Origin: a bacterium
Lineage (GTDB): Bacteria; UBP14; UBA6098; 4484-93
Reading direction: 5' to 3'
Assembly (NCBI GenBank): GCA_021158465.1
Contig: JAGGUN010000022.1
Location: 1-64,000, forward strand
Length of the DNA stretch: 64,000 bases
Part shown: positions 42,130 through 46,153 of the stretch, one piece after another
How the letters are laid out: each line of letters opens with the position of its first letter
Position numbering within the stretch: the first letter of the stretch is position 1
Translations under genes and position numbers: made by a program
Notes under the pieces: model-generated
The model's input: only the letters and a program-made list of their open reading frames with translations
The model's database searches: none
Told to the model about the DNA's origin: nothing

Positions 42130-43101
42130 GTGGAGAGGACAATTGGAGATATTGGTGAGTTTGGTCTAATTGAGTTTATCAGGGATAGGCTCGGTGAACA
42201 GGGGCTTGTTGTCGATGTTGGGGATGATGCGGCGGTTGTTGCGACGAAGCCGGGTGATTTCGTTGTTGCGACGGTAGACGATATTGTCCAGGATGTTCAC
42301 TTTACGCTTGATTATCCTCCTCGCTCTGTCGGGTGGCGGGCGGTTGCATCATCCTCGAGCGATATTGCCGCTATGGGTGGGAAGGCACGGTTCTTCCTCA
42401 TCTCATTTGTCGCGCCGGAGGAAACGACATTTTCCTGGTTTCGTCGGTTTCTGAGCGGGGCAACCGATTTTGCCAGGAGGTTCAATCTTGCCCTTGTCGG
42501 TGGGAATATATCGAACGGAGGCAGCATCCGCATAAGCACAACGACGCTCGGGACAATCCCTCCGGGGCATATCAAGAGGCGATCTGGTGCGAAGGTCGGA
42601 GACATCATCTATCTGACAGGTGCTATCGGTGGCTCGCAGGCAGGGAGGATTATTTTTTCCGAGACAAGGAATCCTCGCCTGCGACTTGCAAAAAGGCATC
42701 TTTTTCCTGTTCCACGCCTTGTCGAGGGCAAGATACTGGGAGCTGTATCCGCTGTCTCCGCGATGATAGACATCTCCGATGGTTTCCTGCAAGACCTCGG
42801 GCATATTCTTACCAGCTCCGATGTCGGAGCGTACATCGATATCGATAGTATACCTATATTCCCAGGGGTTGACCGGTTCTGCCGGGAGCGGGGGCTCGAA
42901 CCGATTGAATTCGCTCTCTCATCCGGCGAGGAATATGAGCTGATATTCACAGCAGAGGAGAAATACGCCTCTGGTATCGAGGAGGAGATAGGGAGAGAGA
43001 AGGTTATTCCCATTGGTGAGATAGTTGCAAAGAAAGGGATATTTGCGAAGCGAGGCGGCAAGCTGATAAAACTCTCACACGCAGGCTGGAGACATTTTTG
43101 A
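42130..43101 (+). CDS. thiL: Thiamine-monophosphate kinase
   Basis: A 323-residue enzyme that phosphorylates thiamine phosphate to thiamine diphosphate, the cofactor of the transketolase half encoded further along. Diagnostic parts are IGEFGLIEFI, VGDDAAVV, the metal-binding SSSDIAAMGG, NLALVGGNIS and MIDISDGFLQDL. The start is a GTG at 42130; an ATG overlapping it is in another frame, and an in-frame stop lies just upstream. GAAGGG is somewhat far (11 bases) from the GTG. It is the last core gene before the AT-rich island. Confidence 0.95.
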   Translation: MERTIGDIGEFGLIEFIRDRLGEQGLVVDVGDDAAVVATKPGDFVVATVDDIVQDVHFTLDYPPRSVGWRAVASSSSDIAAMGGKARFFLISFVAPEETTFSWFRRFLSGATDFARRFNLALVGGNISNGGSIRISTTTLGTIPPGHIKRRSGAKVGDIIYLTGAIGGSQAGRIIFSETRNPRLRLAKRHLFPVPRLVEGKILGAVSAVSAMIDISDGFLQDLGHILTSSDVGAYIDIDSIPIFPGVDRFCRERGLEPIEFALSSGEEYELIFTAEEKYASGIEEEIGREKVIPIGEIVAKKGIFAKRGGKLIKLSHAGWRHF

Positions 43102-43151
43102 GCTATCCTTCTGCGCCGGTGAATTGGAAACCCCAGAATTCCGCTTTTATC

Positions 43152-43180
43152 TTGACAGAGCATCCGATGAACCATATCTT
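43152..43180 (+). promoter_or_regulatory. Promoter reading into the AT-rich cassette island
   Basis: TTGACA (43152-43157) and TATCTT (43175-43180) with 17-base spacing, about 100 bases before the methyltransferase gene. It could act as the outward promoter for the cassette genes. Confidence 0.6.
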
Positions 43181-43277
43181 GAAGTCATACCTTTGGAAAA
43201 AGGTAAGTAGAATGCCTGCTGTCGCCTTGAAAAGATTTAAAATATCAAAACTCATTAGCCATTATAGGAGATGAAAA

Positions 43278-44216
43278 ATGGGAGAAAAATATATAAAAAT
43301 GAAGGAAGTAACTCACAAAGATTATCTGGAATTTATCAAAGATAAAACATCTGTAATAATCGAAGATGTAGAGATAAAACTTCAAAAGAACTGGAACATA
43401 AAATCTTATGCTCCACCTAACGATTATACTCCAGAACGAACAACGGTATGGAGCTTCCCTGATCGTGGTGATTGGGCAACCCATAAGGGGAATTATAGAG
43501 GGAACTGGTCTCCATATATACCCAGAAATCTTATTTTGAAATATACTCAGAAAGGGGATTGGGTTCTTGATCAGATGATGGGTAGTGGAACAACTTTGGT
43601 AGAAGCAAAGTTGTTGGAAAGAAATGCTATCGGAGTAGATATAAATCTTGATGCTGTTATGGTAGCGCGAGATCGTTTAAATTTCTCATATAACCCACTT
43701 TTCCCTGAATACAAAGAACCCATAATAAAAACATACTGGGGAGATGCAAGAAATTTAGATAAAATTGATGACGAAAGCATCGACCTCATCGCCGCACATC
43801 CACCATATGCAAGTATAATATCGTATACAAAAAATAAAAAATTGAGCGATGACCTGTCGCAATTACCATTTGAAGAGTATCTTAAAGGAATGCGAAAAGT
43901 GGCTGAGGAGGTTTTTAGAGTATTAAAACCCGGTAAAATATGTGCAATCCTGATAGGAGATACAAGAAAACACAAGCACTATGTGCCTATTGCTTTTAGG
44001 GTTATGCAAGCATTTCTTGATGTAGGCTTTATTCTGAAAGAAGATCTTATTAAACTGCAGTGGAATATGAAAAGCACGAGAGAAAGGTGGCGCGCAAAGG
44101 AGTATGAGTTTTATCTCATCGCTCACGAGCATATCTTTGTTTTTAGAAAACCGGAGAGTGAGAAAGAATATAAAAAATACAAATTTAGCGTGAGGTGGAG
44201 GAATGGAAATAAATGA
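43278..44216 (+). CDS. Site-specific DNA methyltransferase (N4-cytosine/N6-adenine family)
   Basis: A 312-residue SAM-dependent amino-methyltransferase. The SAM-binding motif I is DQMMGSGTTLVEA (near residue 98), preceded by the motif X-like GNWSPYIPRNLI. The catalytic motif IV is HPPY (near 175), in the place of the usual (D/N/S)PP(Y/F); HPPY variants occur in this family. The last ~60 residues are basic. Codon use is strongly AT-rich compared with thiL and priA, which suggests transfer. The ribosome site is GGAGAT. It overlaps the next gene by 14 bases, so the two probably act together, possibly as a restriction-modification pair. The target sequence and the exact base methylated cannot be told. 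Confidence 0.9.
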   Translation: MGEKYIKMKEVTHKDYLEFIKDKTSVIIEDVEIKLQKNWNIKSYAPPNDYTPERTTVWSFPDRGDWATHKGNYRGNWSPYIPRNLILKYTQKGDWVLDQMMGSGTTLVEAKLLERNAIGVDINLDAVMVARDRLNFSYNPLFPEYKEPIIKTYWGDARNLDKIDDESIDLIAAHPPYASIISYTKNKKLSDDLSQLPFEEYLKGMRKVAEEVFRVLKPGKICAILIGDTRKHKHYVPIAFRVMQAFLDVGFILKEDLIKLQWNMKSTRERWRAKEYEFYLIAHEHIFVFRKPESEKEYKKYKFSVRWRNGNK

Positions 44217-44766
44217 TCTCAAAGAGCTTATGACATTCAGAAGTCAAGGTGAAATTAGAAGACCTATAAGTGTAATAAAGGTGAATGATAATTTCATTTT
44301 GGCAATATACAAGGGAAGAAAAGGACCAGCAGATATTCTAATCAGATATAGACAAAAGTTGAAAAATGGTGAATGGTCAAACATCAGAACGCCCAAGCAT
44401 ATTCATTGGACAGTAGATATTTTAATAAAAATGTTTCAAGAAGAGCATTTAACAAAACAATTCATAGACGAACTGATGAAAATTTGGAAAAAGGAAATCC
44501 AACCTATGACTCAAAATGAGAGAGATAGACTTGAATTAGATGAATTGTTAAACTATGATAAAGAGACTCTTGAGCGATTTAGGGAGCTTAGTAAATATGG
44601 TGAATATAATGTAAGATTTCTTTTATTGCTCGCAAAATTGCTAATGCTTCAGGAGAGAACAAATTATCCAGAAGGACAATTATTTCAAACCCTGTTAAAA
44701 AAGTTGAAACAAGGGGAAGATATTTTCAGTATTTTGCAAACAGCAACTCTAAGGAGGTTAAGATAA
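44203..44766 (+). CDS. Unknown protein coupled to the DNA methyltransferase
   Basis: A 187-residue, AT-rich gene product with no signal peptide or membrane segment. The N-terminal half looks mixed alpha/beta (ISVIKVNDNFILAIYKGRK, DILIRYRQKLKNGEW) and the C-terminal half is helical and charged. I do not recognise a family or a clear nuclease motif; the K-rich strand segments leave open a divergent restriction enzyme or specificity protein. The 14-base overlap with the methyltransferase and a GGTGGAGGA ribosome site inside that gene indicate coupled translation. It ends 57 bases before the first attC-like site. Confidence 0.65.
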   Translation: MEINDLKELMTFRSQGEIRRPISVIKVNDNFILAIYKGRKGPADILIRYRQKLKNGEWSNIRTPKHIHWTVDILIKMFQEEHLTKQFIDELMKIWKKEIQPMTQNERDRLELDELLNYDKETLERFRELSKYGEYNVRFLLLLAKLLMLQERTNYPEGQLFQTLLKKLKQGEDIFSILQTATLRRLR

Positions 44767-44792
44767 GATGTTCGGCGATGGTAGGCACTCTG

Positions 44793-44807
44793 AGGTGCTT
44801 TGCACCT
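44793..44807. other. Short perfect hairpin upstream of attC-like site 1
   Basis: AGGTGC (44793-44798) and GCACCT (44802-44807) around TTT, with a further GGCA...TGCC pair outside it. No T-run follows, so it is not a normal terminator. It could be part of a longer fold with the adjacent attC-like site. Confidence 0.4.
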
Positions 44808-44823
44808 TGCCCCTATTCGGGTC

Positions 44824-44902
44824 ACTTAACACGGGCTATACGGTTCACTTCGTTCGCCCAAATCGGCTTACGCCGACTTCGTATAGCCCGATACCGTTAT
44901 TT
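44824..44902 (+). other. attC-like recombination site 1
   Basis: Left box ACTTAAC (44824-44830) fits the integron R'' consensus RYYYAAC. After one base comes an 11-base arm, CGGGCTATACG (44832-44842), which pairs perfectly with CGTATAGCCCG (44880-44890). Five bases later comes the R'-like GTTATTT (44896-44902). The loop contains GCCCAAATC (44856-44864) and a small inner hairpin TCGGC...GCCGA. The same order and spacings recur in site 2. The orientation relative to the gene is that of a cassette. Confidence 0.7.
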
Positions 44903-44936
44903 GCAATGTGCATTATGATGAAAGAGATGTGAGATA

Positions 44937-45428
44937 ATGAAAACCGAGGTGGGAGAATATATTGTAGGTGCATACTTGAAGATCATCAAAGGATGTGATT
45001 TTGTCGATTATAATGTTAGACCCCCAGGTGGTGGACTCGAAGGGTTAAATGAATTAGATGTTGTGGGATTAGATTTCAAAAATAGAATCGCTTATCTATG
45101 CGAGGTCACTACTCATATAAGGGGGCTTCTATATAAAGATAACAAAACTACTGTCGAGAGAATAAAAACAAAATACGACAAACAGAAAAAATATGCCGAT
45201 AAATACCTTTCGGATTTTCCTAATCGGTATTTCATGTTCTGGTCGCCAGTCGTCCCTAAAGGTTATATTACTAGCGAGCTCGAAAAAATTGATGGACTAG
45301 AGTTAGTCATTAATGAAAAATATGCACGATGCATAGATGAATTAAGAGAAAAAGCAAAAGAACTCACTAATGATGTTGGAAATCCATTTTTCAGGATGCT
45401 TCAAATATTAGAACATTTGAGGAAATAA
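44937..45428 (+). CDS. PD-(D/E)xK nuclease-like protein (cassette gene)
   Basis: A 163-residue AT-rich gene product. NELDVVGLDFKNRIAYLCEVT gives the beta-hairpin of a PD-(D/E)xK fold with D41, E56 and a Thr (T58) where the usual Lys would be; E4 or E7 in the first helix could be the additional acidic residue. A conserved Lys may come from the next helix. No signal peptide or membrane helix is seen. It sits alone between the two attC-like sites, as a single-gene cassette. It could be a restriction-type nuclease or an inactive relative; the target is unknown. Confidence 0.65.
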   Translation: MKTEVGEYIVGAYLKIIKGCDFVDYNVRPPGGGLEGLNELDVVGLDFKNRIAYLCEVTTHIRGLLYKDNKTTVERIKTKYDKQKKYADKYLSDFPNRYFMFWSPVVPKGYITSELEKIDGLELVINEKYARCIDELREKAKELTNDVGNPFFRMLQILEHLRK

Positions 45429-45445
45429 TAGAGTATGCACACAGC

Positions 45446-45533
45446 AGATAACAGAGCGCATCTGGCTACGGTGCTTCGCATCTCTGCCCAAATCCTGCTT
45501 CGTAGGACTTCAGATACGCTCGGAACGTTTGGT
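45446..45533 (+). other. attC-like recombination site 2
   Basis: Left box AGATAAC (45446-45452), one base, arm GAGCGCATCTG (45454-45464), a loop with GCCCAAATC (45486-45494), right arm CAGATACGCTC (45511-45521; one mismatch), a five-base spacer and GTTTGGT (45527-45533). The one-base and five-base spacers and the loop core repeat those of site 1. The R'' box is the complement at 6 of 7 positions of the R'-like box that begins its own cassette (GTTATTT at 44896), as expected for a circularising cassette. Confidence 0.68.
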
Positions 45534-45580: not shown

Positions 45581-46153
45581 ATGGCTCTAAAGCCTCCCAG
45601 CAGATTGGTCAAGACCGTTCGGGAGCTGATATATTGGCTATATGCTGAACTTATAGCAAGAGCTGCAGGTTTTGAAGGTAACTATGGGTTTGTGATTTCC
45701 CGCTATAAGAAACTAAAATCTGGAGAAATGAAATGGTCATCGTCTATACGGGACCGTCAGAAGGAATGGGAGAAAGGCAAAGTGTGTGTATATTGTGGTG
45801 CAACGAAAAACCTTACTATAGACCATATAATCCCCGTCTCCAGGGCAGGTGTAGACCCAAGAGTAAGAAACCTTTTAGATTCGTCGGACAACTGCGTTTG
45901 GGCGTGTAAGAAATGCAATAGCAGCAAGGGCGATCGTGATATCTTTGAGTGGTATGGCAAGGAACGTGTAGACGAAATTCCCAAGCTTGTAATTTCAAAA
46001 TTTTTAAAGATATCATACAAGTTGCATGAAACTCAAGGCACCCTTGATTTGGAGGATCCAAATATGGATGGCGTTCTGGATATCTACGATTTGGGGGTTG
46101 TAATCACTCACTTGATTTCTAAATTATCTGTGGAACCGGGGAAAAAGGTTTAG
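45581..46153 (+). CDS. HNH endonuclease with C-terminal EF-hand-like loop
   Basis: A 190-residue protein. The HNH core is C69-x-x-C72, D81-H82-x-x-P85, N104 and C109-x-x-C112-N113, with the two CxxC pairs forming a structural zinc site. The N-terminal ~60 residues are helical and basic and may bind DNA. At residues 159-170 the sequence DPNMDGVLDIYD fits a calcium-binding loop with D/N at positions 1, 3, 5, 9 and 12 and Gly at 6, as in dockerins and EF-hands. It has an excellent AAGGAGG ribosome site. It follows attC-like site 2, but no such site follows it, so it is either a degraded cassette or resident DNA. Confidence 0.85.
   Translation: MALKPPSRLVKTVRELIYWLYAELIARAAGFEGNYGFVISRYKKLKSGEMKWSSSIRDRQKEWEKGKVCVYCGATKNLTIDHIIPVSRAGVDPRVRNLLDSSDNCVWACKKCNSSKGDRDIFEWYGKERVDEIPKLVISKFLKISYKLHETQGTLDLEDPNMDGVLDIYDLGVVITHLISKLSVEPGKKV

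Follow-up and report, generated by a model that had tools for sequence, protein, structure and literature searches.

The window (the whole stretch of 64,000 nucleotides that we analyzed) contains two intergenic gaps, within a small island of co-oriented genes, that hold long folded sites of the same design, and the question raised by this locus is what kind of gene-collecting system they belong to. A first-pass annotation had read the island as a CALIN, meaning an integron cassette array that has been left without its integrase. The features that bear on that reading are the following.

42130–43101, plus strand: thiL (thiamine-phosphate kinase; TIGR01379, 278 bits), the left flank of the island
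43278–44216, plus strand: DNA methylase of 312 aa (N6_N4_Mtase, type II MTase-like; PF01555, 105 bits; PADLOC MTase_II, 257 bits), cargo of cassette 1
44203–44766, plus strand: open reading frame for a 187-aa protein, overlapping the methylase gene, also cargo of cassette 1
44828–44898, plus strand: site 1, attC-like (AAC 44828–44830, A, arm 44832–44842, arm 44880–44890, ATACC, GTT 44896–44898)
44896–45527, plus strand: cassette 2, between the two presumed cut points, with a match in G002:C93 that begins at exactly 44896
44937–45428, plus strand: gene 3, an open reading frame for a 163-aa protein with a homologue in G002, cargo of cassette 2
45450–45529, plus strand: site 2, attC-like (AAC 45450–45452, A, arm 45454–45464, arm 45511–45521, GGAAC, GTT 45527–45529)
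45581–46153, plus strand: HNH endonuclease gene, 190 aa (PF01844, 41 bits), after site 2

The island is AT-rich, as first described, with a G+C content of 36–40% versus about 49–50% in its surroundings. DNA of a same-genus genome (G001) is 93% identical through thiL, and that identity stops at position 43103 (blastn); the island is therefore not shared there, which removes the concern that it might be present unchanged in all relatives. Neither the 187-aa protein nor the 163-aa product of gene 3 matched any Pfam, NCBIfam or PADLOC entry, no relatives of gene 3 were found in viral contigs, and its predicted structure had a pLDDT of 42. In the gap between thiL and the methylase gene (43104–43211), one frame resembles the C-terminus of a truncated protein (..GELETPEFRFYLDRASDEPYLEVIPLEKGK), which may be a gene interrupted where the island begins on its left side. 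The last part of the HNH protein (46040–46153; DPNMDGVLDIYDLGVVITHL) has the look of a dockerin-type repeat and may be one.

The two sites follow a common plan, consisting of an AAC box, a single A, an 11-base arm, a core containing CCCAAAT, a matching arm, five bases and a GTT box. The arms of site 1 (CGGGCTATACG and CGTATAGCCCG) are 100% complementary and those of site 2 (GAGCGCATCTG and CAGATACGCTC) contain one mismatch; GCCCAAATC is present in the core of both, ACTTC is found at the 3′ arm of both, and the sites are 622 bases apart. A scan of the island for this architecture returned exactly these two sites on the sense strand (shuffles gave 0.0) and none on the opposite strand, and both follow plus-strand genes in the cassette orientation, in agreement with the initial description. 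The exact loop core occurs 11 times across the host genome and is accompanied by the architecture only at sites 1 and 2. The nine other matches were rejected as sites for lack of it, such that a search on the loop core, which had been proposed as a route to further sites, gave none by itself; the covariance model described below recovered a third site in the host. Folding of the bottom strands as single DNA sequences, another of the proposed checks, favored site 1 (z = −2.95) but not site 2 (z = +0.05, no better than shuffles). Such single-sequence folding is weak evidence for the sites; their real support is comparative and comes from covariation over 11 homologous sites.

In the alignment of those 11 sites, 85.9% of cells were paired (18–38% in slid controls) and the covariation score was 0.398, versus 0.142 for shuffled alignments, with 0 of 500 shuffles scoring as high. 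AAC and GTT were invariant, and full 7-base boxes (RYYYAAC ... GTTRRRY) were present in some sites only. Sites of this type are hairpins of 47–100 bp with freely varying arms, and a 1/5 spacer geometry predominates. The observation that had first suggested attC sites, namely arms that differ in sequence and keep their design, is borne out by strong covariation. The stretch directly 5′ of site 1 (44780–44826; GGCACTCTGAGGTGCTTTGCACCTTGCCCC...GGGTCACTTAAC) is found at the corresponding position in G042 and G069:C8 and resembles the core of another site that has degenerated.

A covariance model built from the 11 aligned sites (R1; sites 1 and 2, both in its training set, score 77.3 and 76 bits) had matches in 29 of 193 genomes, and these frequently formed gene-then-site arrays. 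Similar sites therefore occur elsewhere, a point on which the earlier interpretation had been made to depend; most of the R1-positive genomes have arrays with no detected recombinase. The third host site (G000:C33:10064-10142; L129:4065-4143) lies near a contig end and is followed by a TauE-type gene, and in G069 a TauE-type gene likewise follows such a site (69% over 790 bp). R1 found no site 3′ of the HNH gene, and the status of that gene as a cassette is uncertain for this reason. In viral contigs, 25 matches to the loop pattern were rejected, none having the AAC/arm/GTT architecture.

A search of 61 genomes with the DNA of the island gave two kinds of match, site copies and a cassette. The site copies (75–83%) were found in G008, G017, G036 and G042, the first three of which hold homologues of site 2. 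The cassette match, in G002:C93, has 91% identity and runs from exactly the G in the GTT of site 1 into gene 3; there, the gene 3 homologue is the first to follow a recombinase remnant (its C-terminus) and an attI-like stretch. This is the one exact cassette boundary that was found; the presumed cut in site 1 is at G^TT, after 44896. The largest open reading frame was in the sense orientation in 14 of 14 cassettes from five arrays, and the cargo of the arrays includes DNA methylase, PIN and HicA (toxins) and TauE or transport genes. Given the covariation, the arrays and the exact boundary at the G of the GTT, we regard these units as cassettes and the host locus as a CALIN-like remnant.

The host genome encodes only two tyrosine recombinases, both XerC/XerD-like. 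We found no IntI in that genome, no recombinase of the array-head type (described next) in the host assembly and no recombinase of any kind in the island, which upholds the claim that a cognate integrase is missing, and the window itself has no attI-like region. At about 15 loci in several phyla, by comparison, the array is headed by a co-oriented, XerA/XerD-like recombinase of about 390 residues (for example, in Nitrospinae MHDQ01000055.1). Linkage was tested on 14 loci that were fetched by the recombinase alone, with R1 run afterwards: 19 of 19 R1 sites (E < 0.05; nine of the 14 loci) lay downstream of the recombinase on the same strand. Under random placement the chance would be about 0.26 per locus and about 5e-6 over the nine loci, as estimated from flank lengths. 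The record titles of the fetched loci include Nitrospinae, Thermoanaerobaculaceae, Ca. Stahlbacteria, WOR-3, 'Deltaproteobacteria', Acetothermia and Firmicutes, and further array heads, with the recombinase intact or as a remnant, were found in G102:C202, G183:C9, G157:C1, G002:C93, G017:C82 and G069 (C8 and C18). The contigs G059:C163, G191:C52, G114:C140 and G068:C41 break off no more than about 250 bases from a recombinase of this group. Such breaks would be expected of repeated sites that disrupt assembly, and the array counts are therefore low estimates. Directly after the recombinase stop codon, ten loci share a region of two palindromes, a spacer and a conserved end like GAACGAGTTA; within this attI-like region AGTT is invariant, and the first cassette starts at its GTT.

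Integron integrases are set apart from other tyrosine recombinases by an extra domain (PMC9024848, PMC9668308), which is regarded as what enables attC sites to recombine in their folded, single-stranded form (PMC9024848, PMC7790495). In our alignment, about 55 residues that are present in every canonical IntI are missing from all of the array-head recombinases, in which the catalytic R, K, H, R, H and Y are kept. The tree likewise places the IntI clade (100/99) apart from a group comprising the array-head recombinases and their Bacteroidota relatives (98/97). The best NCBIfam match of the array-head recombinase above cut-off is NF040815 (XerA, 'site-specific tyrosine recombinase/integron integrase'): the Nitrospinae protein scores 233.7 bits against that model (cut-off 220) and 225.6 bits against the IntI model (cut-off 265). 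XerA also lacks the IntI insertion, but the array-head recombinase differs from it in having an N-terminal domain that is HARP-like over the first 50 residues (PF07443, E 2e-4 to 0.01, below the Pfam cut-off) and a cassette array downstream. HARP domains are known from annealing helicases, and by analogy the HARP-like domain may have a role in recognizing folded DNA. An AlphaFold model of the recombinase, made from six sequences, had a pLDDT of 62. Two other frames, G185:C1:60-1226 (436 aa) and G091:C1:725937-727142 (460 aa), match canonical IntI and, in addition, the N-terminal portion of the profile made for the new recombinase, such that some IntI may carry a HARP-like N-terminus.

We consider it probable, on the sequence comparisons above, that a small remnant of an integron-like array, lacking its integrase, is preserved in the window, and that the integrase of such arrays is an XerA/XerD-like protein with a HARP-like N-terminus and without the IntI insertion. 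We infer the folding in vivo, the cut position and the action of the recombinase on these sites as follows. One strand of each site would fold into an AAC/GTT box, an asymmetric 1- versus 5-base spacer, an 11-bp stem and a branched core, and the recombinase would recognize the shape and the asymmetry of that fold. It would then cut at G^TT, excise gene-plus-site units, and insert these in one orientation at an attI located just downstream of its own gene, with the proposed attI consisting of the paired palindromes followed by GAACGA^GTTA. By the field's definition this system is not an integron, because the defining IntI domain was tested for and not found; it nevertheless appears to work like one. 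The likeness includes a recombinase gene with an adjoining attI-like site, one-gene cassettes with an AAC/GTT hairpin after each of them, a single orientation, and the existence of integrase-less remnants (CALIN). Co-oriented intI genes and cassette arrays have been described in Treponema (PMC3607928). Several points weigh against our reading: a single exact cassette boundary, a host with no such recombinase, the many R1-positive genomes whose arrays have no detected recombinase, the other roles that XerA-like proteins have, the TnpF relatives that accompany IS91/ISCR elements and not arrays, a HARP match below the cut-off, and a site 2 that by itself folds no better than shuffles.

The strongest alternative, which we judge to be unlikely, is that this is an ordinary CALIN, whose sites are the lineage-typical attC of a canonical IntI that is lost or absent here, the co-located non-IntI recombinase being incidental. 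The attC-like plan with AAC and GTT boxes and the gene-then-site arrays fit this explanation, as do the presence of a true IntI in the host's class (G011:C58, 366 bits) and of canonical IntI in three R1-bearing genomes (G102, G113 and G162). Against it, R1 at E values up to 5 found no site in three class 1 integrons, a cyanobacterial IntI locus and five MAG IntI contigs, and no contig in the 193-genome sample carries both a canonical IntI and R1 sites. Canonical IntI is also not enriched where the sites occur (3 of 29 genomes with R1 sites versus 19 of 164 without), and every array-head recombinase found lacks the IntI insertion. The geometry points the same way: the sites described here have an uninterrupted 11-bp stem, 1- and 5-base spacers and a conserved CCCAAAT core, whereas class 1 sites in the same analysis have shorter, broken stems and other spacers. 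The attI-like region of the array-head recombinases differs from that of IntI integrons in its paired palindromes. At least two attC sites with no integrase nearby define a CALIN, and the island has this composition provided that its sites count as attC-like. Of the first-pass reading, the attC-like sites, their cassette orientation, the island and the missing cognate integrase stand; its assignment to the IntI type calls for correction, and 'CALIN' fits in a loose sense only, for cassettes arrayed with no integrase of their own.

A second alternative, that the host's XerC and XerD move genes at these sites in the manner of dif modules, could draw on the XerC- and XerD-like proteins of the host and on the resemblance of the array-head recombinases to XerA/XerD. 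Sites for XerC and XerD (dif) are short and conserved in sequence, unlike the long hairpins with freely varying arms found here, and a dedicated recombinase stands at the array heads, leaving this explanation very improbable. Equally hard to sustain is a structured RNA, transcription terminator or other dispersed repeat with no part in recombination: hairpins directly after genes and conserved loop letters are typical of RNA elements too, but a search of Rfam gave no relevant match, no T-run lies 3′ of the stem, and the strict association with the recombinase in strand and side, together with the cassette boundary exactly at GTT, argues for recombination sites.

The integron-like system with an insertion-less recombinase also seems to extend beyond the reach of R1. 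Two sites that reproduce the architecture exactly lie on a viral contig (L198) whose recombinase is 50% identical; in G068:C10 there are three sites on the sense strand and none on the antisense strand. On plasmids of the cultured Bacteroidota Rufibacter tibetensis (NZ_CP012644.1) and Chryseobacterium sp. SNU WT5 (NZ_CP041688.1), a relative of the recombinase is followed by co-oriented genes, which are separated by sites of similar general plan; these sites were found by a structural scan and gave no match to R1. Both plasmids could be used for experiments. TnpF-like recombinases of IS91/ISCR elements belong to the same clade (52% identity over 59% of the query) but adjoin IS91-type transposases, with no array found there. 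One TnpF-like relative lies between ISVsa3 and tet(X3) in Acinetobacter baylyi NZ_CP104735.1 (L201; 2043-4064), where no cassette array was seen.

Integrons are known for collecting antibiotic-resistance genes, and they are defined and detected by the extra domain of IntI. An array-head recombinase without that part therefore appears to represent another, so far undescribed route by which genes are collected, with similar sites and cassettes recurring across phyla. In the literature that we searched (preprints and most subscription journals lay outside it), no cassette arrays headed by a recombinase lacking the extra domain were described. On balance we favor, with less assurance than our reading of the window itself, the existence of a second, widespread integron class, ranging from candidate phyla to cultured Bacteroidota, in which an XerA/XerD-like recombinase has a HARP-like N-terminus replacing the IntI insertion and its own attI and attC-like sites. 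If so, cassette capture at folded sites either has more than one origin or is older than the IntI insertion, and such a class is being missed, or filed as CALIN, by current integron searches; since standard tools require the extra domain, whole integrons of the insertion-less type would go unrecognized. An insertion-less cassette system would also offer another mode of recognizing folded sites and make the evolution of folded-site recombination directly testable.

Group II intron reverse transcriptases were observed near recombinases of the array-head group at three loci (L198:12666-13963, L173:12723-12999 and L202:1241-2524). They bring to mind the introns that are known to target attC sites.
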